Positions 40,735-61,953 of a stretch of 64,000 nucleotides of DNA are shown here, one piece after another. This DNA is from Halovenus salina. GTDB lineage: Archaea; Halobacteriota; Halobacteria; Halobacteriales; Haloarculaceae. The stretch spans positions 1 to 64,000 of the forward strand of contig NZ_CP112975.1 in the NCBI RefSeq assembly GCF_026410925.1. The letters run 5' to 3'. The position numbers and the translations under genes are program-made. The stretch's first letter is position 1, and every line of letters begins with the position of its first letter. Under the pieces are notes generated by a model. The model had not been told where the DNA came from. It saw only the letters and a list, made by a program, of their open reading frames with translations, and did no database searches.

Positions 40735-40853
40735 GTTCAGGAGAATGGTGTTCCACTCCAAGCGTCGGTAAGCGAAGCGAATGGTTGCCTGTCGGAGCAG
40801 GTTGAACCCGCGACGGCAGCCTTTTTACCTATTCAGTGCAGGTGTAGCGGATG

Positions 40854-41426
40854 CTAGGCAGCTACGTGTAGCGGTTTAAGACCGCATTCTCCAGCGCTTT
40901 TGTCCAAGTACCGGTTCGCGTTCCCGCACTGTGGCGAGTGGATGTAACTGGGACAGCCCTCCCGACACCCACACTTATCAATCAGGTCGTCGGTCCGATC
41001 CAGCAGTCGGCCCAGCGCCTCATAGGCAGTGGCTACCAGCCCTACACCACCAGGGTAGCCGCCGTAGACGAACACGGTCGGCAGTTCTGTCTCTGGGTGG
41101 TGGCTGATCAAGAGACCACCCACGTCCCCCCGGTCGCAGAGAACCTCCCGAGGGAGCAACGAGATGAGCGCGTGTTCGACCGCGTGCAGGCCCACTCCTA
41201 ACTCCTCCATCAAGGCCTTGCGACTCTCAGGGAGATCCACTCGGACAGCAGGCGAGAGTGAGAAGTGCGTTCCTGTCGTTTCGATTTCGTGCTCCGGCAC
41301 CTCTTGCTCGAACTCTGTTTCTACCGGGTTGTCGTCGCTGGGGCTGTCGTACCCCAAATAACCGTCGTATTCGTTCCGGACAGTCAGGTCGACCAACCCA
41401 CAGTCATTGCTGTTGTGCGTCAGCAT
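40854..41426 (-). pseudogene. C-terminal fragment of a MrfA-type helicase (DUF1998 domain)
   Basis: 190 codons. The sequence ALISLLPREVLCDRGDVGGL, then HPETELPTVFVYGGYPGGVG and a cysteine cluster (KCGCREGCPSYIHSPQCG) is the DUF1998 domain that closes MrfA-like DEXH helicases, which normally exceed 700 residues. The helicase motor is absent; upstream lies an IS remnant (41436-41531), so the 5' part was probably lost by an IS-related deletion. The residual ORF starts with an accidental ATG. Confidence 0.7.
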
Positions 41427-41435
41427 TTTTATCCT

Positions 41436-41531
41436 GATGCGCTATGCCTACGGCTCGTCGTTGCAATTACCAACTACGAGTGAGGAAACGAGCCAGGCTG
41501 TGAGAAGCTATGAGATGGATTCTATGACAGG
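41436..41531 (+). mobile_element. Remnant of an ISH11-like element (C-terminal codons and one end)
   Basis: The plus strand reads ALCLRLVVAITNYE, as in the C-terminus of the transposase at 32734, then CTGTGAGAAG and ends TTCTATGACAGGCC, a decayed copy of the TTCTATGACACCCTC terminus. The rest of the element is gone. Confidence 0.65.
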
Positions 41532-41556
41532 CCTGAGACCGTCGTGCAACGGGCTA

Positions 41557-42837: not shown

Positions 42838-42874
42838 CGTAGATAACAGAAGCACGGTATGTGACAAAAAACCA

Positions 42875-43625
42875 CCGTTTCATGAGAGTCATCTGTTTCA
42901 TGAGAGGTAGCCACTGCTTCACGGGACGATTAGACCCTTCATCCACCCCCTCCCCCCGATTTTCACGAGAGTTTCCCTTATGAACTAGGGGAGAATGAAA
43001 ATTAGACTATATCACAGAGAAAGTTTTAATATAGAGAGTTGATAACAATACCCGTATTACACTAGTAGTTGTTCTGTAGTTGTAGAGAATCTAGGAAAAA
43101 GCGATAGATATTGTTTCTTGCCCTCTTCCTCTATGGTGACACTCGTGAAAACCGGGGGGAGGGGACTACACTTTCGTAGTTGGATAGGTGGATTAAGAAT
43201 CACCGCCCAGTGATGCCTCTCGTCGTTATCTGATTTCTCTCCCACGAGAATTGACTGGAACTGTTCAAGCGGATCTAGTCCTCGTCGCTTCCAGGTCGCC
43301 AACATCGTTGTTCTCGTCTCGTGAATTAGGACCTCTCTGACGAATGGAGCATCTGAAACATCTTCTGAAGGGGCGTTATCGAGTGATTACAACTCCGCAG
43401 ATAACCGCTCTGGTTCCTCGTACCGTTCGGCGACGTACTCGGCTTCTCGCAACCGATGAGCCCAACGCCGCGGTATTCAGAATATGGATAATGTTACACC
43501 CCGTATTTCATGAGTGTGAAATTGACGTGTTGTCTCCTCACTCTCGTGAAAACTGGGGTGAGGGGAGATGAAAAATCACCAGCTTGTTACCACATACCAC
43601 ACTCTCGTGAAAACCGGGGGGAGGT
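42875..43625. other. ori: Replication origin with ORB-like repeats
   Basis: Four long ORB-like copies with the halophile G-string: inverted at about 42944-42971 (CCCCCCGATTTTCACGAGAG), direct at 43140-43165 (CACTCGTGAAAACCGGGGGG), 43540-43566 (ACTCTCGTGAAAACTGGGGT) and 43600-43624 (ACTCTCGTGAAAACCGGGGG). Shorter TTTCATGAGAG copies stand at about 42879-42905. Between the inverted and first direct copies lies an AT-rich stretch (42990-43075) suitable as unwinding element. No gene is inside. Position next to orc1/cdc6 supports a functional origin. Confidence 0.8.
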
Positions 43626-44211
43626 ACTATTCTTCCACGCCCAATTTCTTCTAGTATGATTGTAGCAAAGAGCTTGTAAATCGCTAAATAGGAATCTGAT
43701 CATTCTTTCACAGGGCGTTGTGGAATACGTTTCATCTTTTGAAACCTTCAATTGAATACCTCCAAACGTACAGGGAACATTGACGTGATCCTCGAAGGGA
43801 AAATGTAGCCGTGGTCAGTAGAACCTTATGTAACAACTGCCACTCGATCAATTGTAGTATGTTACATAAGGTTCTACGAACCATCTTCGCGTTCAAGATC
43901 TCAAGCACGTTGGGCTTTAATTTGATTTTACTTGATTAGCTCGTCGTCAACAGCCACTGAAATCGTTGCATTAGGAGTCACTACGTTCGTTCTCGACGCT
44001 CGTGAATGAAGGAGTCTACCAGCCAATTCACTGGTAGTGACTGTCTGCAGCGGAGAATCAAATAATTGTCCAAATTGTACTCTCTCGAGTGGTCGTTCGC
44101 TTACTCACGAGAATCGTGTTTTACCATGCCGTGCAGTTCTATCTGCAATAGGGAGCACTACAGGGTAGGGATATACTGGACATTCCACAAAGTGTAATTT
44201 CAAGCGCGAAC
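43626..44211. other. Intergenic region beside the origin; contains a 17-bp inverted repeat at 43819-43876
   Basis: TAGAACCTTATGTAACA (43819-43835) and TGTTACATAAGGTTCTA (43860-43876) are perfect inverse copies, 24 bases apart, with the same core as 701-747. Single CTCGTGA-type half sites (43999, 44105) may be minor ORB parts. No gene is seen. Confidence 0.6.
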
Positions 44212-44442
44212 TTATTTACTTAGGTTATTTTCTTTTGTTCTTGGATCATTCTCTAATTCGTATAATCCAGAGGCCAGCCTTTTCACGTGATTATGTTCTA
44301 GAAATCGTTTGAGTTTTTCACTAGCGTATGGGCGACTAATATCTAGTTGATCTGCAACATATTGGGGTGTTACACGCCCTTGAGCAAGCTCATCGAGGAT
44401 AGCTTCATCTGTTTCATTGAGGTCTTCTGGTCGGAGCGGCAC
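44212..44442 (-). CDS. Small winged-helix transcription regulator
   Basis: 76 residues from ATG 44442 (MPLRPEDLNETDEAILDELA). The body is one winged helix: AQGRVTPQYVADQLDISRPY, then ASEKLKRFLEHNHVKRLASG and LYELENDP. It is divergent from the HNH/AddAB-like region; a perfect operator-like repeat lies 70 bp upstream of its start, over the TATA box of the other direction. It is probably an autoregulated repressor of the downstream plus-strand genes. Confidence 0.8.
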   Translation of the reverse strand: MPLRPEDLNETDEAILDELAQGRVTPQYVADQLDISRPYASEKLKRFLEHNHVKRLASGLYELENDPRTKENNLSK

Positions 44443-44512
44443 TCTTACGTTTTACTACGGCTGCTCTCTTACAATAATTCTTGTCTTCTTGTAACCATTC
44501 TCAAGTTGCATC

Positions 44513-44541
44513 TATTCGTATCTTACGAATAGTAATATATA
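44513..44541 (+). promoter_or_regulatory. Promoter with 9-bp inverted-repeat operator
   Basis: CTATTCGTA (44513-44521) and TACGAATAG (44525-44533) form a perfect palindrome with a 3-bp centre, followed directly by the TATA-like AATATATAA (about 44534-44542). A repressor on the palindrome would block TBP/TFB; the winged-helix gene at 44212 is the obvious candidate. Confidence 0.55.
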
Positions 44542-44542
44542 A

Positions 44543-44740
44543 GTGGACGGGGAACAGATAATCATACGAAGTGAGTCCGCGTTAAAAGCGGCCCGGTGGT
44601 TGCAACACCGGACCACACTTCGCCGGATTGACGAAGCAATGCAAACTAACTATTGGACCGGAAATGAAACCTCCGGAACGATTGGCGAACAGCTATTGAA
44701 TGACAGCACACGACGAGAGGTAGGTGCCGATGGCGAGTAA
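44543..44740 (+). CDS. Small protein ahead of the HNH genes, doubtful start
   Basis: 65 codons from GTG 44543 (MDGEQIIIRSESALKAARWL). The sequence is basic in part (HRTTLRRIDEAMQ). The GTG sits on the TATA-like box, so if that box is used the real start must lie downstream, for example ATG 44639, leaving 33 residues. It overlaps the next gene by 11 bp and could serve as a translationally coupled leader. Whether it makes a stable protein is uncertain. Confidence 0.35.
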   Translation: MDGEQIIIRSESALKAARWLQHRTTLRRIDEAMQTNYWTGNETSGTIGEQLLNDSTRREVGADGE

Positions 44741-45956
44741 CGCTAACTCAGAGTCCGGGTCGGGACAGTCTGAGCAGGATCGAGCGGATTTGGAAGAGCA
44801 GATTTACGCGGAACACAATTCGATTCCCAAGCAACTCTGCAAGGAGGTTCTTGAGCGAGACGGACATCGGTGCCAGATCAAGGGCTGTCGCGGACGTGCT
44901 CACAATGGATCGGCACAATTGCTCGTTCAGCGGATTGAACAAGAAGACCCCAGTGACAGTGACCCTGATCTCACAGAGTTGGAGACGCGGTGCCTGCGCT
45001 GTAGTGTCTGGATCGCACAGATGCCGACGACAGAAGACCTCCGACATCGAATCAAGCAGCGTCTGGGGAGTGTCACGCTCGAGCCCAACCGTGCGGAAAT
45101 CTTGCAGTACCTCGGTGAGGAGGGGCCTGCGACAACTGGTGAGATCTTAGAAAACGTCAATTTAGGCAGCAACCCGGGTGTTCGTCAGGCATTGTACTCG
45201 TTGATGGCGTTGGATGTCGTGGAGCCGGCCGTCGAGCGAATTGTAGTCAAAGACCATGTCGAGGAGACGTACGGGCTGCCGTGGCAAGTCCCGGATGAAC
45301 ATGATGCTCGTGGTGTCATCCCGGTTCGGCCAGCGGAGCTCCGGAATCGGATACTCGACGAGTTGGTGAATCGGCTTTGCCGGCAACTGGAAGACACAGT
45401 CGAGGACCATGAGGACGTAATTGCTGGGATCGTCAAGCGGAGTCCCCGACAAGTCGGGCTTATGCGTCGACGGGCGAAAGCATTCCAATTCCCGTTTGAA
45501 CAGTGGGTGGATCGTGAAGAGTCACGCGAGGACCCAACGGCGATCATTGCAGCAGTGGATGCACTGGCGGATGAGTCGAATAATCCGTCTCGGCAGTTCC
45601 TGAGTAGAAACATCGCGGGTGTGTATGAGGCGAATGACAAGCAATCGTCAGCGGAATTGCTGCGAGCGTACGCAAAGAGCGAAGACATTACGCCGTACAT
45701 CGAGGGGCAGTCGAAGACGCCGGGAAACACTGAGGCACACAATCGTGAGGCAGACACTGTAACTGCTGACGAGGATTCCACATCGGAACCACGGAGTGTG
45801 GAGAACTCTTCCCGAAGCGCGGATGGAGAGGCGACGCGGTGGGACTTGCAGACGCTGGAAGACGCGAGTCTCGAGAGTGACGAGAGTGACGTGGAGTTGG
45901 GGGAGTTCGATCCTGGGCAGAGTAACTCACGTAGTGACGGTGACAGTGATGCATAG
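44730..45956 (+). CDS. HNH/zinc-finger and winged-helix protein, plasmid-type
   Basis: 408 residues from ATG 44730. Residues about 30-90 resemble an HNH-type finger (LCKEVLERDGHRCQIKGCRG, then LETRCLRCSVW) in which the usual central histidines are not evident. Residues 110-150 form a winged helix (ILQYLGEEGPATTGEILENV, then NLGSNPGVRQALYSLMALDV). The remainder is helical, with an acidic unstructured tail. It may be a DNA-binding regulator derived from a nuclease. Its stop overlaps the start of the next gene by 8 bp, so it is in an operon with it. Confidence 0.6.
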   Translation: MASNANSESGSGQSEQDRADLEEQIYAEHNSIPKQLCKEVLERDGHRCQIKGCRGRAHNGSAQLLVQRIEQEDPSDSDPDLTELETRCLRCSVWIAQMPTTEDLRHRIKQRLGSVTLEPNRAEILQYLGEEGPATTGEILENVNLGSNPGVRQALYSLMALDVVEPAVERIVVKDHVEETYGLPWQVPDEHDARGVIPVRPAELRNRILDELVNRLCRQLEDTVEDHEDVIAGIVKRSPRQVGLMRRRAKAFQFPFEQWVDREESREDPTAIIAAVDALADESNNPSRQFLSRNIAGVYEANDKQSSAELLRAYAKSEDITPYIEGQSKTPGNTEAHNREADTVTADEDSTSEPRSVENSSRSADGEATRWDLQTLEDASLESDESDVELGEFDPGQSNSRSDGDSDA

Positions 45957-46803
45957 GGATCAGCAGGTGGCGTTCGAGGGGGTCCTGCCGTCGATCACGG
46001 CGAGACAGAACCCGTTTGGAGAGAGCAGTTCGTGTTCGGTCGAACCAGTGGTTCTGGAGGCAGCTGAAGAGGATGAGGTTCTGCAGCAGCGGCCAGTGTC
46101 GATTCTCTGCTCGGGCTGTGGTGACGTGATCACGCGCTACCGAGATGGCATCCCATCCAGATTGGCACACTTCGAAGAGGAGTGTCAGACCTGCGAGACA
46201 GGGCTGCAGCGATGGAGTGCGGTGGCGATAGTGACTTCATTGGAGACGGCACCGAGTGTCGAGCAGTTAGAGTCGGTGACGACGGGCTATTGGGATCGGC
46301 ATCTGTGGACGGGAATCATGACTGGTGAATCGTATCCTCGAACGGAAGAGTACACAGAAGAGTACACGAAGCAGGCAAAGCAGTTTGGGTGGGAGTGGAA
46401 GGTTAGATGTCCGCTGTGTCGGCGATCACTCCCGGAGTTTGGTATTGAGATGTTCGACTACCACCACTGGCATCGTGATCCAGACCAGGGGATTTGTCTG
46501 TGCCGTGCGTGTCACAAAGGAATCACAGGTGAGGGACGAGACGGCACACAAGACTGGCGAGCACAGCAGTTGGGGCTGAAGAACAAGCACGACCTGCAAC
46601 TGACGCGGTTGGCAATTCGTGAGCAGGTGGTCAGCGATCACGAGACACTGGAAGGGTTGGTAGAGACGGTGGTGAGTCGATACAATTCGACGATGAATCG
46701 GATGGAGTTGTTCGCACTGCTCTCACAGACGTTGACGACGTCGGTCGTCTTGGATACGGTGGAGGATGAGTGGCTTCTCGCGGCGTTGTCAGTAAGTCAG
46801 TAA
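45949..46803 (+). CDS. HNH endonuclease-like protein
   Basis: 284 residues from ATG 45949 (MHRDQQVAFEGVLPSITARQ). Two zinc knuckles early (ILCSGCGDVI and ECQTCETG) are followed by a clear HNH core: VRCPLCRRSLPEFGIEMFDY, HHWHRDPDQG and ICLCRACHKGITG, with the HH...N/D and CxxC residues. The C-terminal 90 residues (KNKHDLQLTRLAIREQVVSD) are helical and are duplicated at 53756-53977. It is translationally coupled to the preceding gene. Likely a site-specific nuclease of an island, either defensive or mobile. Confidence 0.7.
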   Translation: MHRDQQVAFEGVLPSITARQNPFGESSSCSVEPVVLEAAEEDEVLQQRPVSILCSGCGDVITRYRDGIPSRLAHFEEECQTCETGLQRWSAVAIVTSLETAPSVEQLESVTTGYWDRHLWTGIMTGESYPRTEEYTEEYTKQAKQFGWEWKVRCPLCRRSLPEFGIEMFDYHHWHRDPDQGICLCRACHKGITGEGRDGTQDWRAQQLGLKNKHDLQLTRLAIREQVVSDHETLEGLVETVVSRYNSTMNRMELFALLSQTLTTSVVLDTVEDEWLLAALSVSQ

Positions 46804-46836
46804 TCCACCACGGCGTCCCTTTGGGATCCCGTTAAG
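46576..46836. repeat. Left copy of a 261-bp direct repeat
   Basis: From CTGAAGAACAAGCACGACCT to about GGATCCC, this segment (the 3' end of the HNH gene plus 33 bp) recurs at 53756-54016 with about 15 substitutions. The distance between copies is 7180 bp and the AddAB-like operon lies between them. Confidence 0.9.
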
Positions 46837-46865
46837 CTGGTTGAAGTCTTGAGGTATACCGACGT

Positions 46866-47171
46866 TCACCTTTCTGGTGGAATAAGATCTTCAGCATCGA
46901 GTTCTCCGGCTAAATATGCCATCCCTTTGTCTGTGATGCAATAATATCCGCGTCGATCATCGACACGTTTGAGCAGGCCCATTTCGGCTAACTTCCCCAT
47001 CCGGCGCGAAATTGTATCGCGTGACTTCTCGAGTACACTGAGATTTTGGGTGAGGTTAATCCAGACTGGGGTTGGGGCAAGCCAGACGTTGAGTCCTGTG
47101 GATTCTAGTTCCTCGAAGAACTCGAGGATCGCATCATCAGTTTCGTTCATCCACGGGACCCGCGGTCGCAT
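46866..47171 (-). CDS. PhiH1-repressor-like winged-helix protein
   Basis: 101 residues from ATG 47171 (MRPRVPWMNETDDAILEFFE). MNETDDAILEFFEELE is the usual opening of PhiH1-repressor-like haloarchaeal regulators; SRDTISRRMGKLAEMGLLKR, then VDDRRGYYCITDKGMAYLAG completes the winged helix. It is divergent from the AddAB-like operon with 222 bp to that operon's first likely start, so it may control it. It lies inside the segment bracketed by the 261-bp repeats. Confidence 0.8.
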   Translation of the reverse strand: MRPRVPWMNETDDAILEFFEELESTGLNVWLAPTPVWINLTQNLSVLEKSRDTISRRMGKLAEMGLLKRVDDRRGYYCITDKGMAYLAGELDAEDLIPPER

Positions 47172-47392
47172 ACCAGCGAATTCTGGTCATTGGTTGTTAG
47201 ATGCATCGGTTACTGAGACTTTCAAGCTATTTAATTCAGAAAATCGTTATATGACTCAGATTTAAGTACTTGCGCTATATACTGTATGAATATGAGCGCG
47301 GAATCTGGCGGGTTGTGTATCAATTTTCCCACATCGAGGAACGGCTGGGTTTTGAGAGCGTTCTCTGGTGGAGGCGAAATGAGGTGGTTGTA

Positions 47393-48331
47393 ATGGGTGG
47401 AGGTGGCCCGGGGTCATCTGGATGGGTGCAGACTTCTCTGGAGGTGTTTGGGGAGGAGGCATCCTCGCCGGGGATTCGCGGGGACGGTGAGCAGGTGGAG
47501 ACCCAGCAGCAACCGTTATTGTCGAAAGCAACCTTTGACAGGAAGGTTGTTGTCCATGTTGGTGATCTCACACCGTTAGTGTCATACGGTGACCATTCAC
47601 CGTTCCCGACTGAGCTCGTTCTTGCGCCTGTTGCCTTGCATCGCCGGACAATCAAGCGCCGGTTGGCGGCGGCGGATACTCCTCGAGATACGCTTTCTCT
47701 CGTTAGTCCAGATGCTGTTGCTGCGCAGGTGGTCGAGACGGCGACACAGACGCCTCCAGGACTGGTTGATCGTGTGGATCGCATCGCTCTCTTGGAGATG
47801 CTGCTGCGAGAGACGCCTGAAGCGACCGACCGGTTACAGATGGTACTTGGACCACACCCAGCAGAGTCAGTCAAACTCGTGGACCAGGCTCGAAACGAGT
47901 TGGAGACAATAACAGGGTACCATCCTGATCGCCTCACTGCTCTTCGTGAGTATTGCAATGGGAGGGACAGGCCAGCAGCGACGGATATGCAGGATTTTGT
48001 GGCAGGCACAGTCGCAATCGAACGTGCGTTGCGTGTGCGGACAGACCGTGTCACATCAACAGGAGCGCTGCTCCGTTGGGCATGTCGAAGATTGGTTTCG
48101 CAGGATGGGGAACCGTGGGATGCGGAGTATGCGTCGATTGAGCGGGTCTGGGTCTGCGGCATAAGTACGTTGTCGGCGTCGCTAGTGGACTTTCTGGTGA
48201 GTCTGCTCGTGACGACTGATGTTGAGGTACATTTGTTTCTGCGGCGGGCGTCGGCCCCGGTGGTGCAAGAACGACTTTTGGATTTGTTCGCAATCGAGAC
48301 GCCGGGATTGGAGGTGTTTGATATTCGATGA
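47393..48331 (+). CDS. AddB-like N-terminal protein (first gene of the helicase-nuclease operon)
   Basis: 312 residues from ATG 47393, which has GAGGTGG six bases in front. A 35-codon open frame (ATG 47286) ends with TAA overlapping this start (TAATG), suggesting a coupled leader. The protein lacks Walker motifs; helical segments such as LVDRVDRIALLEMLLRETPE and SVKLVDQARNELETITGYHP resemble the inactivated helicase N-domain of AddB-type subunits. Its stop overlaps the next start (ATGA). Function as a half of a split AddB is inferred from order and layout only. An upstream TTG start at 47270 would add 41 residues not like the family. Confidence 0.55.
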   Translation: MGGGGPGSSGWVQTSLEVFGEEASSPGIRGDGEQVETQQQPLLSKATFDRKVVVHVGDLTPLVSYGDHSPFPTELVLAPVALHRRTIKRRLAAADTPRDTLSLVSPDAVAAQVVETATQTPPGLVDRVDRIALLEMLLRETPEATDRLQMVLGPHPAESVKLVDQARNELETITGYHPDRLTALREYCNGRDRPAATDMQDFVAGTVAIERALRVRTDRVTSTGALLRWACRRLVSQDGEPWDAEYASIERVWVCGISTLSASLVDFLVSLLVTTDVEVHLFLRRASAPVVQERLLDLFAIETPGLEVFDIR

Positions 48332-49581
48332 CTGAGAGCGTTCTGTCCCGTTCGATTGCTGGTTTCTGTCCTGAATCGGAGGTTCCGATAGTCGAAGTTC
48401 CAGCGTCGACGCCGGCGATGGAAGCACGGATTGCACTGTCGATGGTCGCGGAATTACGAGAGCGTGGAGTTCCGATTCGTGATATTCTGGTTGTTAGTCG
48501 TGATTTAGACGGCTATGAGGATTTGCTTGTCCGGGCAGCGATTCGACACGATATTGCACCGACGATCTGGACGCAGTTACGCCTCGTCGAAACACTGCCG
48601 TATCGGATGTGTAAGACGCTCTGCGATATCTTCGCAGCGGACCAGGTTACGTTCGAGACGGTAGTGATGCCTCTTGCATTTGGATGGGTTCCACCTGAAC
48701 CGTTAGATGAGTGGCCATTGGATATGAGTCCTGTTCGGGAGATGTCTCATCAGGCGCCGACTGATGCGGTGTCGATCGAGGGTTGGCAGACGCGCGTTTC
48801 AGAGCAGTCGTGGGGGAACGATCAGTTACTGTCGTACTTGGAGTGGGTGATGGCGTGTCCTGAGAGGCCGTCACCGGAACAGTCGACTGACATCCTTGGT
48901 GGGGTACTGCAGCGGTATCGTGAGTATGTACTCCCGATTCGCAAGGAGCGTGACGGGCCGGCGTTACTGGAGACGGAGCGAGCGGTGCGAGCTGTCACGC
49001 GGATGGATGATCTTATCGAGCGGGTTGCACGGACGTACGGCCAGCGACTGGAGTTGGATTGGAGCGAGCAGTCGTGGGATCGGATCGCTGGACTCTGTGA
49101 GTCGTATGCAACGCAGCGACCTGGCCGTCGGGAACACGCCAACGCACGGGCTCTGGACATCATTGAAGCGAACGATGCTTGGGGACGAGAGGTCCCGTAC
49201 GTCATCGCCGTGGGATTGTCGGCTGGTGTCTGGCCGCAACAGCAGGAGTCACTCGTCCCAGTCTCTCTTCAGGACTCTGTGCGCAGGGGAGAAGAGGGGT
49301 TAGATCAGGTTGCACCCCGGCTCGGATGGAGCGGGATCAAGGATTACGATCAGTTCGCGGATACGGTGGCGGCTGCGACGAAGGGTGTTGTGTTGACTCG
49401 ACACACAACGGGAAGCGACGGCGGTGATCGGAGACGGTCGCCGCTATTGGAGTCGGTTCCGGTTGAACGAGTGAGCCGCTCTTCGGCGGTTGGTCTTCTC
49501 GAGGTCGAGCGGCGGATCCCTGAGGAACTGGAATCATTCTTACCGAACGCGGACTCTTCGGAGGGGGAGGTTGAAGGGTGA
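48328..49581 (+). CDS. AddB-like second protein of the operon
   Basis: 417 residues. EVPASTPAMEARIALSMVAE, then RGVPIRDILVVSRDLDGYED is the typical start of domain 2 in AddB/UvrD-like proteins. The later VPYVIAVGLSAGVWPQQQES, then LLESVP with the Arg/Asp-rich GGDRRRSPL, matches the 'GL..G.wP' region. The C-terminal PD-(D/E)XK and iron-sulfur cluster of bacterial AddB are absent. It overlaps the gene before (ATGA) and is followed after 6 bp by the AddA-like gene. It probably forms a complex with both. Confidence 0.6.
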   Translation: MTESVLSRSIAGFCPESEVPIVEVPASTPAMEARIALSMVAELRERGVPIRDILVVSRDLDGYEDLLVRAAIRHDIAPTIWTQLRLVETLPYRMCKTLCDIFAADQVTFETVVMPLAFGWVPPEPLDEWPLDMSPVREMSHQAPTDAVSIEGWQTRVSEQSWGNDQLLSYLEWVMACPERPSPEQSTDILGGVLQRYREYVLPIRKERDGPALLETERAVRAVTRMDDLIERVARTYGQRLELDWSEQSWDRIAGLCESYATQRPGRREHANARALDIIEANDAWGREVPYVIAVGLSAGVWPQQQESLVPVSLQDSVRRGEEGLDQVAPRLGWSGIKDYDQFADTVAAATKGVVLTRHTTGSDGGDRRRSPLLESVPVERVSRSSAVGLLEVERRIPEELESFLPNADSSEGEVEG

Positions 49582-49587
49582 TGAGTC

Positions 49588-52500
49588 ATGAGTAATCAGG
49601 AGTCCTCGTCGACAGACGACGACCACTCGGATTCGACTGCGGAGACATCGGACCCGCCTCGACTGAAGGGAGCACAACGGCTGATTGCGGAGGCGTACTT
49701 CGATACCAATTCTGGGTTATTCGTGTTGAACTGCGTTCCCGGTGCGGGAAAGTCGTTCGTCAGAAGTGATCTCGCAGCCAAGGAGTTGCTCAAGCGGTGG
49801 GTTGCAGGCGATCCGACACCGGAACGACGGCTGTGTGTGGTGACATTTTCTCGGGACGAGGCGTCGACGATCCGCTCGGATATCACGAGTCGTCTGGAGG
49901 CGCTTGTTACACACGATATGACGCCAGCTGGGGCTGAAACGACCGACGAGGAACTGACTGCGCTCCTCCATCGCGTTCGACAGGCACCGTATATCGGCAC
50001 GATCGACAGCGTAATTCGGACGCTTCTGAGTGAGATTCTCAGTGACGTAGGATTCAGGGAAATGCCGACGACCGGCAACGATGCGCATCTGGAGCAGCTT
50101 CATAGAGCCTGTTTCGATGCAGTCGGGTCAGATCCGGCGTATTCGTCGGCAGTGGACCGATTGACCGAGGCCTACCCGACAAGAGAGTACGACGCCGGTG
50201 TGGCGGAGTTGCTGCGGTCAGCATTGCGGTATTGCCGGTCGCATCGACTGTCTCACGATGAGTTCCGGGAACGGTTATTGGATACGATCGATGCAGTGTA
50301 CGCTGAGGGTGAGACGACATCGATTGAGGACATTGGGGCTTCGCTTGCGCGGTGTGTGTCAGCGTCTGCAGCGGAGGAGGCGATTGAGTCGCTGTCGGAG
50401 GAGGACTGTCGTTCGCTTGTGGCAGCAGATCAGGAACTTCGGGAATCGTGGGTGGCACGAATCGAGGACTTCTGTACGGTTTTGTCGGGGTATCGTGAGA
50501 CGTACGACTCCCTGAGTCGGGAGCGTGGTGTCCTTTCACATCTCGATTGTGCGTATCTGGTGGCCGAATTCTTCGATCCAGATGTCGTTGCAGGGAAAAC
50601 CCCTCAATACAGCACGGCATCTCGGGGACAGAAGCAGGATAGTGCTGGCAGCCAGAGCCGAACTGATACGTTTACGCGTGAGGACGAACAGACGGAGCAA
50701 CGAGAGAGCCGTAACTCAGGAGATATGACGGAAGACAGCGCGGTGGTGCCCCGTCAGGATACGGGCGACAATCCTGACATGGCGCGTCGTCGGAAGCGAG
50801 TGTTGGCCCGTCACCGTGATCGAATCGACTGTTGGCTGGTTGATGAGGCCCAGGATCTCTCGGCTCTCCAGCACGATGCGTTAGCCCCGTTGGTCAGGTC
50901 GGATGCACGAGTTTTCGCTGCGGGAGATATCCGTCAGAGTATCTATGGCTGGCGGGATGCACATCCTGAGCTGTTCGCCGCTGCCATCGAAGAGGGGAAA
51001 TATTTTGAAAATGACTGGCAGACACATGTAGTGGAGACGGCAACCCGGACGTACCGGTGCCGACCGGCGATTGCCCGAGCAATCAATGCAATCGCGGAGC
51101 CAGTCCTGACTGATCCGGAGCAGGGGAACCTCGGCGAGCTTGAAATGGAGTATCCACGGCTGGAGGCAGTGCGTGAATCAACCGATGAGCCAGGTATCCA
51201 CATTGCAGCGTTCAATCGACAGGGAATTCCGGGAAGTGACCAGTACGTACGTCCCTCAGGTCGGAAAGGTGAAGCTGGGCTGCTGGCGACGTATCTGGCT
51301 GGTGGCTTGGCGGATGGAACACTTACCCCTACCAGTCAGACGGAGGATTCCTCTGATGACTCTCATAGATCAGAGAGGAATTGTAATCCGCCGATTACAG
51401 TTCTCTTTCGGCGGTGCCGACACATGGAGACGTATGCAGAAGCGTTCCGAGCTGAAGGACTGTCGGTTCTCAATGCCAGCACTCCTTTATTCGAGTCGCC
51501 GGCTGTGTGTGCGGTGGTCGATGTGATGGAGTGGCTGATCGATCCACTGGAACCAGCGCGTACCGAGAGACTCATGTCTGCCACTAGTCTCGATGTTGGA
51601 GAACTAGAGACCGCGTGTGCCTCACACCAGTGGGAATTGGATGCAGTGCTTGCAGAGAGGAGTGAAGAGTTGTCAGAACGGGAGGAGGAGGTCCTTCGGG
51701 CTCTTACAGAGCTTCGAACACAGGTCAACATCCAGTATCCACAGACAGCACGAAATCTGGCCGCGGACGTGATCGAGACGCTGGCATTGCGCAGTGATAG
51801 ATATGACCTCGTCAGCGAGGAATCGCCGGCATCACGTGTTGCAAACCTGGATGCGTTCGAAGAGTGGCTCGTTTCGCTGGATAGTGGTGATGGGATGTCT
51901 ACGTCACGTGCTGTCGAGTTAGTTGAGCCGGTTCGAAACGAGCCGCGGAAGGGCCCGCCCCAGCCTGTCACTGAGGATGGTGAGGCGGATGTCGTCTTCA
52001 AAACAATCCATCAGATGAAAGGCGATGAGGCTGACGTAATTGCATTGGCTGATGTGGGGTTCAGGTTGTGGGCACCAGGTACGTCCAACCAACGATTCAT
52101 CAACTCCGGCGACGTGGTAGGACTTGCACCGCCAGAGCTCGACCACGATTTGTCTCTTACTTCTCGCCCACTCTCGGTGTTCTCGAATGGTCTGTATACT
52201 CCAGGTGGAGATTCCGGTGCAGATTCAGACACTGGGCATCACACTGGTGGACGGTCGGGCCTGGTACGTGACGTTGGCTTGCGGTGGGCGACCGAGCAGT
52301 GGTATTCTCCAGAGACAGCAGAGAGTCCCGATCAGCTGCTTGGTCACGACCAGCTTCAGCGCGTCGCACGTTCACACCGTGCTGAAGCATGGCGATTGCT
52401 GTACGTGGCGTTGACACGTGCTCGAGACCATCTGGTCATTCCATTGCCACGGACGAGCCCTGCGGGTATTTCAGAGCGCGACCGATGGGTGGATGCGATC

Positions 52501-53481
52501 CGAAACGGACTCGGATTTAGCGGTTCACCCCGTGCAGGGCAATACCTCGTTGACACACGTGGTGAGGAAACACCGTTGACGGTTTCGGTAAACGATGTGT
52601 CGCTGCAGGCTGGGGGCCGTCAGAACGGTGTAGGGAAGTCACCCGTTGAATTGAGAGCAGCTGGTGGTGACGACCGTTTCGCGGGAAGTAGTCGAGTCAC
52701 ACAGGAAACACTGCCAGCTTTCATTCCACGGCTCATTCGTCCGAGTACGCTCGCGCCGCTGGCTACCTCTCCCGAAGAATGGATGCTTGCGCATCTTCAG
52801 AATACGGAATTGCACACAGAGATGGACACAGACAGAGTGGGTTTCGAAGCGCCGTTCGAAGTAGGAGATCTTGAGCCGGAAGTACTCGGGACTATCGCTC
52901 ACAGTTTCATGCGACTGATGATCCATCGAGTGAGGTCTCGACAAACAGATGGAGAGGGAGCTGTAGAAGAGATTCTAGCGCTTCGCCCGCTTGCATCGGC
53001 GGCCGTTGAGAGACACTGTGGCCACCTCACGGAATCGACTCGCGGAGAGATTGTGGCGTTCCTCACTTCGCATGTCGGTTCCCAATTACGGGATACAGAG
53101 TGCTGGCGGCGTATCAAGGAATCTGAGGCGGTCTATCTGGAGAAATCATTAACAGGCTTAATCCGCATTGACGGCGTTGAGTTCGAGTTTGACGGTTCAG
53201 GCGACCTTGTCCTCAAACAGAAGGACGGGACTTGGGAGATCGTCGATCTGAAGCTGCAACTTCAGGATCCACATTCGGAGACGAAGGAACGGTACAGAAT
53301 TCAGGTGGGAGCGTATACATCGCTGCTTGCGTCCCAAGTGGATGGAGATATCTCAGGTCGGGTGAAGATGGTTGGGGTGGAGTGTGAGTCACTGCTGGTT
53401 GACGGTGATGAATTCAAAATCGAACAAGAGTTAGCGGCACTGTATGAAAGACTAAAATCCGGTCAGCAATTCTCGGATTGA
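49588..53481 (+). CDS. AddA-like UvrD-family helicase with C-terminal PD-(D/E)XK nuclease
   Basis: 1297 residues. NCVPGAGKSFVRSDLAAKEL (Walker A, about 48-58); CWLVDEAQDLSALQHDA (Walker B, about 412-428); FAAGDIRQSIYGWRDAHPEL (motif III); VVFKTIHQMKGDEADVIALA (motif V); AWRLLYVALTRARDHLVIPL (motif VI). The C-terminal 150 residues hold the nuclease: FDGSGDLVLKQKD, then TWEIVDLKLQLQD (D...DxK) and RYRIQVGAYTSLLA. This is the layout of AddA/RecB-type subunits, which resect DNA ends. Archaea normally use HerA-NurA/Mre11-Rad50, so the gene is likely a transferred repair or anti-invader module. A linker of Ser/Thr/Glu (about 335-390) is haloadaptive. Confidence 0.85.
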   Translation: MSNQESSSTDDDHSDSTAETSDPPRLKGAQRLIAEAYFDTNSGLFVLNCVPGAGKSFVRSDLAAKELLKRWVAGDPTPERRLCVVTFSRDEASTIRSDITSRLEALVTHDMTPAGAETTDEELTALLHRVRQAPYIGTIDSVIRTLLSEILSDVGFREMPTTGNDAHLEQLHRACFDAVGSDPAYSSAVDRLTEAYPTREYDAGVAELLRSALRYCRSHRLSHDEFRERLLDTIDAVYAEGETTSIEDIGASLARCVSASAAEEAIESLSEEDCRSLVAADQELRESWVARIEDFCTVLSGYRETYDSLSRERGVLSHLDCAYLVAEFFDPDVVAGKTPQYSTASRGQKQDSAGSQSRTDTFTREDEQTEQRESRNSGDMTEDSAVVPRQDTGDNPDMARRRKRVLARHRDRIDCWLVDEAQDLSALQHDALAPLVRSDARVFAAGDIRQSIYGWRDAHPELFAAAIEEGKYFENDWQTHVVETATRTYRCRPAIARAINAIAEPVLTDPEQGNLGELEMEYPRLEAVRESTDEPGIHIAAFNRQGIPGSDQYVRPSGRKGEAGLLATYLAGGLADGTLTPTSQTEDSSDDSHRSERNCNPPITVLFRRCRHMETYAEAFRAEGLSVLNASTPLFESPAVCAVVDVMEWLIDPLEPARTERLMSATSLDVGELETACASHQWELDAVLAERSEELSEREEEVLRALTELRTQVNIQYPQTARNLAADVIETLALRSDRYDLVSEESPASRVANLDAFEEWLVSLDSGDGMSTSRAVELVEPVRNEPRKGPPQPVTEDGEADVVFKTIHQMKGDEADVIALADVGFRLWAPGTSNQRFINSGDVVGLAPPELDHDLSLTSRPLSVFSNGLYTPGGDSGADSDTGHHTGGRSGLVRDVGLRWATEQWYSPETAESPDQLLGHDQLQRVARSHRAEAWRLLYVALTRARDHLVIPLPRTSPAGISERDRWVDAIRNGLGFSGSPRAGQYLVDTRGEETPLTVSVNDVSLQAGGRQNGVGKSPVELRAAGGDDRFAGSSRVTQETLPAFIPRLIRPSTLAPLATSPEEWMLAHLQNTELHTEMDTDRVGFEAPFEVGDLEPEVLGTIAHSFMRLMIHRVRSRQTDGEGAVEEILALRPLASAAVERHCGHLTESTRGEIVAFLTSHVGSQLRDTECWRRIKESEAVYLEKSLTGLIRIDGVEFEFDGSGDLVLKQKDGTWEIVDLKLQLQDPHSETKERYRIQVGAYTSLLASQVDGDISGRVKMVGVECESLLVDGDEFKIEQELAALYERLKSGQQFSD

Positions 53482-53537
53482 GTCTGAATGCTTCATTTGA
53501 GAGTGCCACAGCAACATTCATACAACATCCGTCCATC

Positions 53538-53698
53538 CGCCTTTAGCTAAGAGCCCAATCACAAGACAGCGGCGTAATAAACTTAGATGCAGATTTGCGT
53601 GAGTCGGGAGCTATTTTGCTGTCTGAACGGCTATTGCACCGGCCCAGCGATCTGCCAGAGCAGCCTTTACACGGCTCGTCCGGCTTAGCAGTAGCCCG
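53538..53698. repeat. Decayed copy of the 61688-61852 MITE
   Basis: About 75-80% similar to 61688-61852 along its length (TTTAGCTAA, AAGACAGCGGCGTAATA, CTGCCAGAGCAGCCTT, ACACGGC, GTCC). The terminal repeats are degraded. It lies between the AddA-like gene and the right copy of the direct repeat. Confidence 0.7.
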
Positions 53699-53755
53699 CC
53701 GCCCACCAATTTACTATATCTTGACATGTTTTCCCGCGACTTGGCACGCAGCCCA

Positions 53756-54016
53756 CTGAAGAACAAGCACGACCTGCTACTGACGCGGTTGGCAATTCGT
53801 GAGCAGGTGGTCAGCGATCACGAGACACTGGAAGGGTTGGTAGAGACAGTGGTGAGTCGATACAATTCGACGATGAATCGGATAGAGTTGTTCGCTCTGC
53901 TCTCCCAGACGTTGACGACGTCGGTCGTCTTGGATACAGTGGAGGATGAGTGGCTTCTCGCGGCGTTGTCGGTGTAAGTCGGTAATTCACGACGGCGTCC
54001 CTTTGGAATCCCACTT
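53756..54016. repeat. Right copy of the 261-bp direct repeat (fragment of the HNH gene)
   Basis: Encodes KNKHDLLLTRLAIREQVVSD and following, the C-terminal part of the HNH gene at 45949, up to a stop at 53975-53977, then 39 bp of its downstream sequence. No start belongs to this fragment; the apparent ATG at 53726 is accidental. It meets the primase fragment at about 54016. Confidence 0.9.
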
Positions 54017-54592
54017 GCCTCTATCGAGGAGGAGCACCTGCGAGAGCGCAATGTATTCTCCTCTGAGCCTGCTCCAGTGACAGTACCCCGTGCAGATGCA
54101 GTCGATGCCGAGACAGATGTCCCACTGACCATCGCAGACGAGAAACCGGACAGCGACGAATCTGAGGCCACTGAGCGACCTGTCTCAGAGTCGGTCACCA
54201 ACGAGTACGCATACGAGTTCCAAGACATCCGCAAAGCCATCCACAACGGTTTCGAGATTCGAGACTGGCTCACCGATACCGTTGGCTTCGACAGTGCGGA
54301 TGTCTTTTACAGTGGCCAGGGAGTCCACATCTATGCGAAGTCGGATGACCCTTACCTCACGCTGACTCATCAGTCCCGGAAATACATTGGTCGATACATC
54401 AACGAGCGACTCGGCTTTCCGATTGACGATGAAGTCACCTGGGACCGGTCACGAGTTATCCGGCTTCCATACAGTTTGCACACAGAGGTCAACAGAATTG
54501 TCACGCCTATCACGAGTCGTGACTTTGACTTCATCAAAGAGGCAGCACTTCCGCAATCAGTGCGCACCAACGACGGTGATATCCAATGGTAA
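54017..54592 (+). pseudogene. 5'-truncated archaeo-eukaryotic primase, small-subunit (PriS)-like
   Basis: The frame is open from the repeat junction; the first in-frame start is GTG 54077 (171 residues). The readable sequence starts LASIEEEHLRERNVFSSEPA. Primase motif II (VFYSGQGVHIYAKSD, SxH type) and motif III region (TWDRSRVIRLPYSLHTEVNR) are present, as in PriS-like AEP proteins. Motif I (the DxD pair) should lie immediately before LASIEEE and is missing; the 261-bp repeat begins exactly there. So it is very likely cut by recombination. It overlaps the next gene by 7 bp (translational coupling), as PriS and PriL often do. Confidence 0.6.
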
Positions 54593-56139
54593 CGAAAGAC
54601 CCTACGAAAAGCGTGGTCCGTGCATGGCAGGTTGCAATCAATCCGCGCAACCATTCGAAACTGAATCGGCGGCTCCTGCTTGAGCGGGGCGCACAGTACT
54701 ATAGCACGAACGGGGAGGCAAACGAGAAAGCGATGATCAACGACGTGGCGGAGTTCACTGCCTGTGCCTTCCAAGAGCCAGAACTGGATGAAATGCTTGC
54801 GGGTGAGTCCGACCCTGAAGATGCAACGGACATTGACCTCACAAATCCAGACCCCGGTCGGCTCATGCTGCTCATGACATTCGGTTCAGTGCTGGTCCAG
54901 CGACACCCGAAGATACAGAAGGACAGCCGCGACTGCATCATCCACGAGCGGCTGCACGAATACTATCTCAATAATGTGTACCGGGCGGCCCGTACCTCAG
55001 AGCATGGTGACGAGATATACACAGCTCTGGGGACAGTCGTCTACGAGCGAGATAAGGAAGATGAGTACGGCCCACCAGCTGGTGAGCCAGTCGAAGGAAT
55101 TGACACACTCGAACCACTGGGAGATGCAAAATTCTTCAAGGTGCCATTGGCTCACGCGAACCGGCATTGCGAAGCCCGGAAAGACAACAAGCCAGGTGGC
55201 GACATCCAATCCATCATCAGAGGGAAGTACGTCTACGTTCCCCTCTCGGATCACGTCAAAAAGTACCGGGACGCATTCTTCGGGCGGAGTGGTGTGGCGC
55301 GGTGTCTAGAAGAAATCGTCTACGACAATATTCCGGAAGACAAACTGGACACCTACCGTGATGCGCTCACGGGAATCAACAACAAAATCACGGAGTGGAT
55401 TGAGTACGGCGAAGCAGACAAAGTATTCAAAGCCCACCGGTACCCGCCGAAGTTGAAAGCGATCCTGCTAGCGATAGACCACGTAGACTCAGAAGTGGCT
55501 GCATTTGGTGAGCCGCTGACCAGCAAACAGATTGCACGAGCGACGAGTATCTTCCACGGGGCGACTGACATTGACTGGGTGAAGAAGACACTCGAAGGGT
55601 TGACCTCTCCCCAAGGAGTTGGGATGGTACTCGTTGATCTGGCGAACGATAGCGACGTAGACAATGTGGAGGTGGACACTCACGTTGACCCGAACGAATA
55701 TCTGATTGAGTACCACAAGTCGAACGCGAAGGTTGTCGAGGTGACTGAGCTTGAAGACCTACTGGAACTCCCGTGTATGCAAAACATTCACGAGATGGCT
55801 ATGTCGGACTCAGCACCACGGCGGTGGTACCTGTTCAGTATGGTCCGTATCATCCTGGAATTGGAGACAGACTTCAGCGTTGAAGACATCAAAGAGTGGT
55901 TCTCGCAGTACCCCTGGTATCGAGAGAAAATAACAGACTATCAAGTCCGGTACGAGAAGAAGCAAGATATTGAAGGTGAGTCACCCCTGCCGGTTGGCTG
56001 TAACAACGACAATCGCAACTTCGAAGATGTGTGTATCGGACGAGAAAATTGTGACTACTCGATCTACCAAAGTCTGAATTTCAGCGACGATGTGTACAAC
56101 CGACTGAGCGAGGACGACGACGGGTACGGTCGGCGGTAG
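54586..56139 (+). CDS. Divergent primase large-subunit (PriL)-like protein with iron-sulfur domain
   Basis: 517 residues from ATG 54586. The N-terminal 300 residues are helical with weak similarity to PriL (HSKLNRRLLLERGAQYYSTN; HERLHEYYLNNVYRAARTSE; FFKVPLAHANRHCEARKDNK). The C-terminal domain is recognisable: LLELPCMQNIHEMAMSDSAP, RRWYLFSMVRIILELETDFS, then DYQVRYEKKQ and LPVGCNNDNRNFEDVCIGRE, NCDY. The cysteines at 397, 472, 483 and 489 fit the four-cysteine [4Fe-4S] site of PriL. Together with the PriS-like gene it would form a plasmid primase, placed directly upstream of the iteron array. Confidence 0.7.
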   Translation: MVTKDPTKSVVRAWQVAINPRNHSKLNRRLLLERGAQYYSTNGEANEKAMINDVAEFTACAFQEPELDEMLAGESDPEDATDIDLTNPDPGRLMLLMTFGSVLVQRHPKIQKDSRDCIIHERLHEYYLNNVYRAARTSEHGDEIYTALGTVVYERDKEDEYGPPAGEPVEGIDTLEPLGDAKFFKVPLAHANRHCEARKDNKPGGDIQSIIRGKYVYVPLSDHVKKYRDAFFGRSGVARCLEEIVYDNIPEDKLDTYRDALTGINNKITEWIEYGEADKVFKAHRYPPKLKAILLAIDHVDSEVAAFGEPLTSKQIARATSIFHGATDIDWVKKTLEGLTSPQGVGMVLVDLANDSDVDNVEVDTHVDPNEYLIEYHKSNAKVVEVTELEDLLELPCMQNIHEMAMSDSAPRRWYLFSMVRIILELETDFSVEDIKEWFSQYPWYREKITDYQVRYEKKQDIEGESPLPVGCNNDNRNFEDVCIGRENCDYSIYQSLNFSDDVYNRLSEDDDGYGRR

Positions 56140-56314
56140 TTTTTCGGGTTGGTGTGGAGGTTCCAAGCGGAGTTTTGGAGCGGGTTCTGAGGAGGTGCTC
56201 ATAGAGGCAGCCAACTCACTCAACAACCAGCAATAATTGCTTGTATAGGCGGAGAATAGCCCCAATAATGGCATATTATCATAGGTAATTGCTATAATCG
56301 CAATACACAGTACA
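56140..56314. other. Short intergenic region before the iterons
   Basis: AT-rich (TAATAATGGCATATTATCATAG) with no gene; leads straight into the array. Confidence 0.4.
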
Positions 56315-57056
56315 GTTCAATAATAGCGATGATTGCGTATACGTTAGAATCACACCACACAAAGCAGTTCAATAATAGCGACGGTTGCGTATACGAATTT
56401 TTGATTACCACAGGACATTTTTCTTTCTGTTTGAAATACATTACCCATGTTAATCAATATAATCGCAGTACTCAGTACAGTTCAATAATAACGACGATTG
56501 CGTATACTCTATAATCGCAGTACTCAGTACAGTTCAATAATAGCGATGATTACGTATACGGTTTTTTGATTACTACAGGGCATTTTTCTTTCTGTTTGAA
56601 ATACATTACCCATGTTAATCAATATAATCACGGTACACAACGTAGTTCAATAATAACGACGGTTGCGTATACGATAGAACCACCATACACAATATGGTTC
56701 AATAATAACGACGATTGCGTATACGATTTTTTGATTACTGTAGAGCATTTTTTATTCTGTCTGAAGTACATTACTCCAGTTAATCAATATAATCGCAGTA
56801 CATGGCATGGTTCAATAATAGCGACGATTGCGTATACGGAAGAATCGCAGTACATGGCATGGTTCAATAATAGCGACGATTGCGTATACGATTCAAAAAA
56901 TGGTTCATAGTAATATAATCTTCCTGTCTGTTTGGTGCTGAAACTATATCTCACATAATCGCCTGACACAAAGCGGTTCAATAATAGCGACGATTGCGTA
57001 TACGGCAGAATCGCAGCACATAGAGCGGTTCAATAATAGCGATGATTGCGTATACG
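56315..57056. repeat. Array of ten 29-bp iterons in five evenly spaced pairs
   Basis: The unit starts GTTCAATAATAGCGA and ends TTGCGTATACG (29 bp; variable A/G at two or three positions). Copies begin at 56315, 56367, 56480, 56532, 56645, 56697, 56810, 56862, 56976 and 57028. Spacing is 52 bp within each pair and 165, 165, 165 and 166 bp from pair to pair. The spacer between pairs is also repeated (ATTTTTTGATTAC, CATTTTTCTTTCTGT, TTAATCAATATAATCGC). Short frames inside have no gene features. Candidate iteron-type origin or centromere. Confidence 0.9.
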
Positions 57057-58005
57057 ATTTTCACATAATCAGACCGTCAGAAACGGCGATTTGAGAATCT
57101 GTGGGCCTGTTTTAGAACGCGTTATAGGCTGGCCCAAGCAATCTAAGGTCGTGAGAGGGGTATATGGGGCAGTTATTTGGCCGATTTTCGTACCATCACA
57201 CCCCCCACCTGAGTTGGCATTTAGCCATATTTCAGAATCACTTTCTCAAACAATCTATTTACAAAGTAACAGGTTCGTTCAAACGCCAGCTGGGGCTGGG
57301 GGGTGTGGGACTGTTCAGGCGGCACAGTCCGGGGGCCTCTGAGGGGGTCTCCGCGGCTGCTCTATCGGTGTGGTGCGCGGACACTGCGGGGCCAGATGAT
57401 GCATATGCGCCACGTATGCATCACTGACCGCCTACACACTCGTGTTTTCTTCGCACATGAGACGCGTTGATCCGCTGTTGTTCTCATGCACCAACGGGTC
57501 CCTGACTAGCGACTGTCCGACTCTGTATCCATCGTCGCGTTCCTGTCCGAGTGTGTTGTGTCCGCTTACGAGAGGGACGGTCCTCGACCCAACGTCCGTT
57601 GGGTCTGTGGGTCCCCCCTCTCGAACTGGCCGCCACGGGCGGCCAGGTCGATAGAGCGTGGCCGGGGAGTGAGGTGTGGGGTAGGATGGGAGTGGAAAGG
57701 GAGTGGGAGTCGTGTGTGACGCTAATCAATGAGCATGTAGCGCGGGGATCAGCCCGGCGCTTAGGATGGTTCACACCCGTTCTTCTGAGGGTGTGGCAGT
57801 ATCGTACGTCTGTGACGTTCGTTCTTTGACTGCTCTGTTTTTGTTCACCTCACCACTTTTCTCACAGTATTTTGAGAAGGTGATGGGGATAGTAGTGGAG
57901 CGTCTTTGGAGGCTTCTTGCTCTATTTTCTTCGGTAGCAGAAGGGTTGTGTTGTCCTTGGTTGACTCGTCTTTTACGGTAGCAGAAGAAGTCTATTGTTG
58001 TCTTC
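57057..58005. other. Intergenic region, no gene seen
   Basis: About 950 bp; the frames are short, Ser/Cys/Arg-rich and not haloarchaeal in composition. G-runs (CTGGGGCTGGGGGGTGTGGG near 57290-57310) stand out. It divides the iteron array from the acidic gene at 58006. Confidence 0.5.
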
Positions 58006-58662
58006 TTACTCGTCCACGGACTCTACATCGTCACTGTCGCTGTTGTTGTTCCTGTTGCCAACTTTCTTTGGCTCCTCGTCCAGGTCGACGATGACACACT
58101 CACGTTCCTCATCCCAGTCGGGATAATAGCGCATGCTCAGCTCATCATCGAACTGGTCCTTGATGCTGAACTGTCGCACTAGCTCTCTGATTGCCATCTC
58201 AGAGACGCTGTTCTTATCCTCCAGATCAATCTCTTTGATCTTTACTCCAGGGCGCTCCGCTCTCAGCTTGTTGGTCTCTTCCTCCGTGAGCGTCTTCAGA
58301 TAGAGCTCGTTCTCGCTCTCGTTGTAGAGGATAGTATAGGCGTAGTAGCCCCTGAGGTGACGCTGGGAGAGGTGGGAGTTAGGGGATATCCTCTCGCCCT
58401 TTGGACTGAATCTAACGTAGCTTGAGCCTTTGAGTCCAAGGGACACGTCATCATCGAAGCCACTGAGAACGTCCTCGTCTTCGTTGTCTTCACGATCTTC
58501 TGCTGTCTCTTCGCTCCCTGACTCGTTGTCCACTGGTGTCTCTTCGCTCCCTGACTCGTTGTCCACTGGCGTCTCTTCGCTCCGTGTTTCATCGGATTCG
58601 CTGAGTTCTTCCATCTCTTGATCGTCCAATTCTTCTTGTTCTACGTCTTCTGATTCACTCAT
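58006..58662 (-). CDS. Very acidic protein with N-terminal repeats, function unknown
   Basis: 218 residues from ATG 58662 (MSESEDVEQEELDDQEMEEL). Residues 27-52 repeat SEETPVDNESG twice with a third variant (SEETAEDREDN). The C-terminal 150 residues are a compact domain: GLKGSSYVRFSPKGERISPN, RGYYAYTILYNESENELYLK and DWDEERECVIVDLDEEPKK, perhaps a beta-barrel-like fold. No family recognised. It is the only credible gene between 56.2 and 60.9 kb. It may encode a partition or DNA-binding factor for the nearby array, but this is only a suggestion from location. Confidence 0.65.
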   Translation of the reverse strand: MSESEDVEQEELDDQEMEELSESDETRSEETPVDNESGSEETPVDNESGSEETAEDREDNEDEDVLSGFDDDVSLGLKGSSYVRFSPKGERISPNSHLSQRHLRGYYAYTILYNESENELYLKTLTEEETNKLRAERPGVKIKEIDLEDKNSVSEMAIRELVRQFSIKDQFDDELSMRYYPDWDEERECVIVDLDEEPKKVGNRNNNSDSDDVESVDE

Positions 58663-60600: not shown

Positions 60601-60603
60601 CGC

Positions 60604-61852: not shown

Positions 61853-61953
61853 AATGCACCCGGCTTCTAAGTCACGCAGTTGAGCGCACGTCACCGCGAA
61901 ATCGCCCACCTACTCTCTACCAACAATCGCTTACCCAAGAGAAGTAGTACTAA

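Follow-up and report, generated by a model that had tools for sequence, protein, structure and literature searches.

A plasmid-borne three-gene operon in the haloarchaeon Halovenus salina encodes a helicase-nuclease system of the AddAB/RecBCD kind in which the AddB-like scaffold lacks a nuclease domain and appears to be divided between two polypeptides. The operon lies within the window, the stretch of 64,000 nucleotides analyzed here, which forms the start of a 117,008-bp contig (henceforth referred to as C4); the genome has a size of 3.77 Mb and consists of four contigs. The genes are referred to as gene 1 (B1), gene 2 (B2) and gene 3 (A). With moderate confidence, their products are read as an AddAB-type end helicase-nuclease with one motor and one nuclease, likely providing accessory end processing for RadA recombination.

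The operon is real and intact. All three genes run in the same direction, genes 1 and 2 are joined by an ATGA overlap, and a 6-nt gap separates gene 2 from gene 3, matching the overlaps and spacing proposed in an earlier reading of this DNA from its letters alone (the sequence-only reading). The start of gene 1 is uncertain, with candidates from TTG 47270 via ATG 47393 to TTG 47519, while its end is at 48331; homology to relatives begins near 47528. The order B1-B2-A, or B-A where B is a single gene, recurs in nearly every locus examined, and the operon is therefore not a chance arrangement. The exceptions are L059 (A not found), L032 (contig end) and L054 (A broken). Coordinates of all features are collected in Table 1.

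Gene 3 had been described in the sequence-only reading as a 1297-residue UvrD helicase with a C-terminal PD-(D/E)XK nuclease. Pfam agrees, giving a UvrD-helicase match of 61.5 bits at residues 48–466 and a PDDEXK_1 match of 39.1 bits at residues 1052–1262. The Walker A lysine, the DEAQD and GD..Q motifs and the motif VI arginine are identical in all 21 aligned relatives, as are the nuclease residues H1105, D1206, K1222, Q1239 and Y1243; at position 1220, 16 of them have D and 5 have E. Judged from its sequence, gene 3 encodes a helicase-nuclease of the AddA/RecB type whose active sites are complete. Its score against the NCBIfam model addA_Gpos (62.5 bits) is below the cut-off of 707.65. No invariant cysteine was observed in the A family alignment, and in PADLOC gene 3 matched GajB best.

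Genes 1 and 2 gave no significant Pfam or NCBIfam match. Both align over their whole length with one-gene relatives, gene 1 with residues 15–256 (34% identity, E 6e-36) and gene 2 with residues 273–670 (37% identity, E 2e-84), and the relatives retrieved with gene 2 are mostly single open frames of about 670–815 codons, the one-gene product measuring ~670–770 aa. Neither Pfam nor NCBIfam assigned a noteworthy family to ten one-gene B proteins, and the B family has no model in either collection; a PDB sequence search with one-gene B returned nothing. A structure model of one-gene B, built from 18 alignment rows including both window halves, reached a predicted local distance difference test score (pLDDT) of 87.9 and a predicted template modeling score (pTM) of 0.83, and its top five Foldseek matches were all AddB. 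Alignment with AddB 4ceh_B (VIA-align 2) gave Z 21.9 and a root-mean-square deviation (rmsd) of 5.2 over 598 aligned residues, spanning 2–716 of a 1148-residue chain. The runner-up folds were UvrD 2is6_A (Z 20.1), AdnB (Z 16.8) and RecC (Z 16.7); the AddB arrangement is preferred over UvrD because the latter, despite its Z, superposed with an rmsd of 9.7. The gene 1 model, covering the part from 47492 onward (pLDDT 83.3, pTM 0.82), had AddB 3u44_B as its best Foldseek match (E 2.8e-6) and aligned with residues 2–279 of AddB 4cei_B (VIA-align 2; Z 14.7, rmsd 3.4, 239 aligned), in a tie with UvrD-type helicases.

A second nuclease domain was not found, as B ends at AddB residue 716, beyond which the AddB nuclease domain lies, and no PDDEXK match was obtained in the ten B proteins or the window halves. 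The Fe-S (iron-sulfur) cysteine domain of AddB is absent from the modeled B of this shorter class and was seen only in the long-class relatives described below. Walker A is missing from all ten B proteins and from both window halves. The division between genes 1 and 2 falls in a low-confidence linker of the one-gene model (residues 262–269), between two RecA-like domains. The models thus support genes 1 and 2 as two halves of an AddB-like, nuclease-less helicase scaffold. The sequence-only reading had likewise taken them for an AddB cut in two with the nuclease and iron-sulfur parts gone, and had suggested structure prediction as a check; the predicted fold is AddB-like rather than unrelated, and the one-gene relatives agree.

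The split recurs across several haloarchaeal families. A search of the whole order with the B profile matched 69 of 392 genomes. Short-class B, the class of the window proteins, was present in 54, as one gene in 22 and as separate halves only in 32; this count excludes the remaining matches, which are remote long relatives in 10 genomes and fragments in 5. For tree building, identical C-half rows were dropped, reducing 70 loci to 46 non-identical rows (17 split, 29 one-gene); ten long B proteins were added in one tree, and L041, which gave no match, was omitted. Using the longest open reading frame (ORF), an exact 4-nt overlap was found in 8 of the 17 split rows; in the rest, the longest ORF begins either further upstream or only after a gap, the true start being uncertain. 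A single clade of all 17 split rows was rejected by the approximately unbiased test (p-AU 0.00066) because L085, a one-gene row, clusters with two of the split rows. In a quick tree with outgroup, the 17 split rows and this fused row fall together, with a support of 93 in the Shimodaira–Hasegawa-like approximate likelihood ratio test (SH-aLRT). The tree therefore calls for two changes: either this linker was divided on two occasions, or a single division was followed by a re-fusion.

Table 1 Features of the operon and its surroundings in the window (aa, residues; SF1A, superfamily 1A).
Feature	Position	Strand	Remarks
Gene 1 (B1)	47393..48331	+	AddB-like domain 1 = RecA-like 1A + insert 1B, no Walker A
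Gene 2 (B2)	48328..49581	+	AddB-like domain 2 = RecA-like 2A + insert 2B; ends before AddB nuclease domain
Gene 3 (A)	49588..53481	+	AddA/RecB-like SF1A helicase, C-terminal PD-(D/E)XK nuclease, 1297 aa
Walker A region of gene 3, K55	49735..49755	+	K in 21/21 aligned relatives
Motif II DEAQD of gene 3 (419–423)	50842..50856	+	Invariant in 21/21
Nuclease domain of gene 3 (1052–1262)	52741..53373	+	H1105, D1206, D1220-x-K1222, Q1239, Y1243
Operon segment	46831..53755		Absent at matching site of contig C3, same genome
Left 256-bp direct repeat copy	46576..46830		3' end of gene 45796–46803; 244/255 identical to right copy
Right 256-bp direct repeat copy	53756..54012		Single copy on contig C3 (L125 11384–11640)
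Small winged-helix protein, divergent, upstream	46866..47171	-	HTH_27 E 0.0014, HVO_A0261_N E 0.001, both below cut-off
PriS-like 171-aa ORF and primase-associated protein (NF038197), downstream	54077..56139	+	297.9 bits, cut-off 100

Distribution of the B family is patchy and confined to haloarchaea in every collection searched. Among 146 genomes of the host's family, 16 contained relatives of gene 2, and in a sample of the phylum 11 of 294 genomes matched, all within the haloarchaeal order. PLSDB contained 13 plasmid records with B, all from haloarchaea and 7 of them annotated as two hypothetical proteins, and a collection of 84,980 species yielded 15 loci, again all haloarchaeal. No close DNA relatives of the locus were found among plasmid records at megablast level. 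Haloferax (H. gibbonsii pHG3, H. elongans) and Haloarcula strains carry the one-gene form. Contigs >1 Mb hold several of the operons, one such contig being named a chromosome, and the set is therefore not restricted to plasmids. The homologues are patchy and often plasmid-borne, not universal chromosomal genes devoid of mobile context, a pattern that would have spoken against the sequence-only reading; its suggestion of an imported pathway is not supported, as no B relative was found outside haloarchaea. A viral origin was also rejected, with no relative in IMG/VR (two scans, tblastn) or in 50,697 phage records, and a BFVD structure search returned only generic helicases at E <= 0.001.

Compared with known systems, the operon belongs to the AddAB/RecBCD class of machine. 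It was not filed as an AddAB member because the second nuclease and the Fe-S domain were tested for and not found. AddAB (RexAB; Bacillus subtilis type) resembles it in having an AddA-like subunit with helicase and nuclease, a B subunit matched over AddB residues 2–716, and adjacent genes. It differs in that B of the operon is without the nuclease domain, the Fe-S domain and Walker A and here consists of two proteins, in that gene 3 scores far below the AddA model cut-off, and in that genes 1 and 2 and the ten B proteins have no meaningful NCBIfam match. RecBCD shares the single nuclease in a RecB-like subunit and a motor-dead RecC-like partner, consistent with the RecC fold match, but no RecD-like second motor was seen beside the genes of the operon, and its B is shorter, ending before the C-terminal domain. 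AdnAB of actinobacteria carries motor and nuclease domains in both subunits; its UvrD plus RecB-type nuclease subunit and the AdnB fold match are points of likeness, whereas B here has neither motor nor nuclease. Gabija GajB has a UvrD-like helicase as well, but no GajA match was found among the window ORFs scanned (gene 3 and seven others), and gene 3 has a nuclease of its own. UvrD-Cas4 (pfam12705) fusions, which occur in archaea too, also combine a superfamily 1 helicase with a C-terminal PF12705 nuclease, but in the part of the source available they are described in restriction-modification type contexts without an AddB-like partner (PMC5704561), and the A family aligned here has no invariant cysteine. 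For AddAB itself, the available text describes one SF1A motor and two nucleases, with the N-terminal helicase-like part of AddB serving as scanner (PMC4824097).

Other helicase-nuclease pairs are present in haloarchaea. Contig C2 of the same genome encodes one such pair, with proteins of 949 and 861 aa (L005 8074–13505, G000:C2) with PDDEXK_1 in both proteins, and the 861-aa type was found in 44 of 146 family genomes; a TnpB-like gene adjoins the C2 pair. The long-class pairs, at ten loci (L103–L112), have a B of about 1,114–1,213 aa and an A of 1,207–1,295 aa, and profile comparison matched the short with the long class at a probability of 100, across 630 columns in B and 1088 in A. Six long B proteins scanned showed no significant Pfam family. 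All ten long B rows carry C-x2-C-x5-C near the end together with an earlier cysteine, which is presumably an AddB-like Fe-S pattern, and no conserved D-x-K or QxxxY; long A keeps D-x-K and QxxxY and has its own cysteine set. This reading of the motifs is our own and follows the AddB and RecB motifs. From their sequences, haloarchaeal AddAB-like pairs seem to come in four forms: some have two nucleases, some a second nuclease that is probably dead, some no nuclease in B, and some a B that is split. A conserved pair of neighboring genes was also noted by the long-class operon at L108 (3733–8245) and L112 (7409–11843), with 50% and 28% identity. It probably corresponds to the MADS-like matches in a PADLOC tally of 99 long-class neighbors, which contained mad2 and mad3 (2 members each), a methyltransferase and QueC.

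In the preferred reading, gene 3 would load on a DNA end, move 3'–5' by its UvrD motor and cut with its PD-(D/E)XK nuclease. Genes 1 and 2 would together rebuild a motor-dead AddB scaffold, the part of bacterial AddB that guides and scans a strand, its RecA-like halves being separate and joined non-covalently. With a single nuclease, cutting would mainly affect one strand, probably the 3'-ended strand as for AddA, until regulated or blocked. We infer a three-protein assembly with this strand polarity and a role in repair, in which the machine may serve as an accessory processor of broken ends for RadA recombination on haloarchaeal replicons. More broadly, the most likely role is accessory double-strand-end processing or the degradation of broken or foreign linear DNA.

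Repair is weakly favored over defence, given that no recurrent defence setting was seen and that two loci have repair genes nearby. These are the XPB helicase and DUF790 (Bax1) genes, a repair pair, found upstream in the window at 37911–40734 and also at L029, at a distance of 4.5 kb from its split operon and with 80–88% identity to the window pair. Several points weigh against the preferred reading of machine and role. Just 1 of the 40 loci searched gave an XPB match, some of the 40 being duplicated places, and neither position nor gene content tells repair and defence apart. That genes 1 and 2 join and make contact with gene 3 is itself part of what we infer, and at L059 the B halves occur without a recognizable A. 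Pfam detected a NurA-domain protein in all 96 family genomes scanned, with two matches on contig C1 of the present genome, and also in the H. volcanii control; NurA being universal here, the machine is not the sole possible route of end resection. These matches contradict the notion that haloarchaea are without NurA. The contrast with HerA-NurA resection drawn in the sequence-only reading is consequently weaker than it appears, even though H. volcanii has neither HerA nor NurA according to one review (PMC7776575).

Neighboring genes were scanned at 25 chosen short-class loci, taking three per side where available and genes of at least 90 aa (145 genes in total). PADLOC matches were scattered, with 1–2 members per family among the 25 of 80 families listed, and the operon flanks differ between loci. 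A constant partner gene was rejected, as the first 25 Pfam families listed each match at most 3 of the 145 neighbors, and no RecD-like second helicase recurred among the immediate neighbors in these 25 families, the search being confined to that neighborhood. Anti-virus or anti-plasmid cargo, degrading incoming linear DNA as bacterial RecBCD and AddAB do, is the reading that the sequence-only account had based on a defence or mobile context, and it is considered rather unlikely. It would fit the patchy distribution, the frequent plasmid location, the absence of the window segment at the matching sister-plasmid site and the methyltransferase, QueC and MADS-like genes tallied near remote long-class relatives, and UvrD-Cas4 fusions of bacteria and mesophilic archaea are linked to defence contexts in the available part of one study (PMC5704561). 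However, the neighborhood survey called for in that account gave no recurrent defence family among the matches listed, annotated neighborhoods of relatives hold mostly metabolic or transposon genes, and the phage records contained no relative. A PhiH1-type repressor and HNH proteins were also said to accompany the operon. The upstream regulator (46866–47171, minus strand) is a weak winged-helix match, and the only HNH match in the window (4988–5131) is 42 kb away; it scores equally with a second match at 91704–91847 of the same contig (G000:C4), likely a duplication. In sum, the AddAB-like character and the split, nuclease-less AddB of the sequence-only reading stand, while import and defence by neighborhood found no support.

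A helper function in plasmid replication or segregation, with the operon processing ends from plasmid replication in connection with the primase-associated module, is improbable. An Orc1/Cdc6 gene lies 5 kb upstream, and a primase-associated setting is shared by the window, by L027, where the split operon is directly followed by the start of the primase-associated gene, and by L036, which has a primase-associated fragment downstream. Against this, the two families share a contig in only 4 places among the 23 genomes of the order that have both, and are close in 2 (G000:C4, G010:C3), so the primase-associated protein is a weak candidate partner; the L027 pair is additional to these 2, L027 being outside that table. 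The operons on contigs >1 Mb argue against it as well. That the operon is a decaying AddAB, with the split and the nuclease loss reflecting pseudogenization, is very improbable. B does lack the nuclease domain of bacterial AddB, and relative L054 has a broken A, but both halves are open in 17 non-identical split rows with the split on a domain linker, separate halves are found in 32 of 54 genomes, and the active sites of A are invariant in 21 of 21 relatives.

Contig C3 is collinear with both operon flanks and carries one copy of the 256-bp segment and no operon at that site. Recombination could have inserted the operon at this segment or, acting between two copies, removed it from C3, and either event would leave the same picture. 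At another site (38475–44056), C3 encodes the system in its one-gene form. Comparison of window positions 44618–63138 with the C3 locus L125 showed that C3 and C4 share long stretches at 84–97% identity, unequal on either side of the operon. Elsewhere in the window, the Orc1/Cdc6 gene (41557–43624) has nearby 28-nt repeats ending in G runs and is origin-like, and five tandem units of ~165 bp lie downstream of the primase-associated gene (56275–57059), an array also present on C3. No RNA element was found in 40000–60000 and no tRNA in the window.

RecBCD and AddAB are textbook bacterial enzymes. According to the part available of one survey, RecBCD, AddAB or AdnAB is encoded by 88% of the bacterial genomes surveyed (PMC6452273). 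No AddAB-like pair, AddB-like partner or split AddB was seen described for haloarchaea in the literature searched, which was consulted in part and mostly outside subscription papers. The operon offers a new arrangement of this familiar class of enzymes, which has hardly been studied in such organisms. Tentatively, it may represent a fourth RecBCD/AddAB-class architecture native to haloarchaea, with one motor, one nuclease and a two-polypeptide scanner, possibly hotspot-regulated; it could then stand last in a haloarchaeal series running from a two-nuclease pair through a nuclease-dead AddB that keeps its Fe-S domain and a nuclease-free AddB to the split AddB. For Haloferax, the authors of one study, as far as its available text goes, knew of no Chi sites or similar signals (PMC7521656), and the gene set is a candidate reader of a Chi-like signal. 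A naturally occurring enzyme with a single motor, a single nuclease and a scanner in two pieces would allow the roles of scanner, Fe-S domain and second nuclease to be told apart, and the presence of the one-gene form in named Haloferax and Haloarcula strains makes the system genetically testable.

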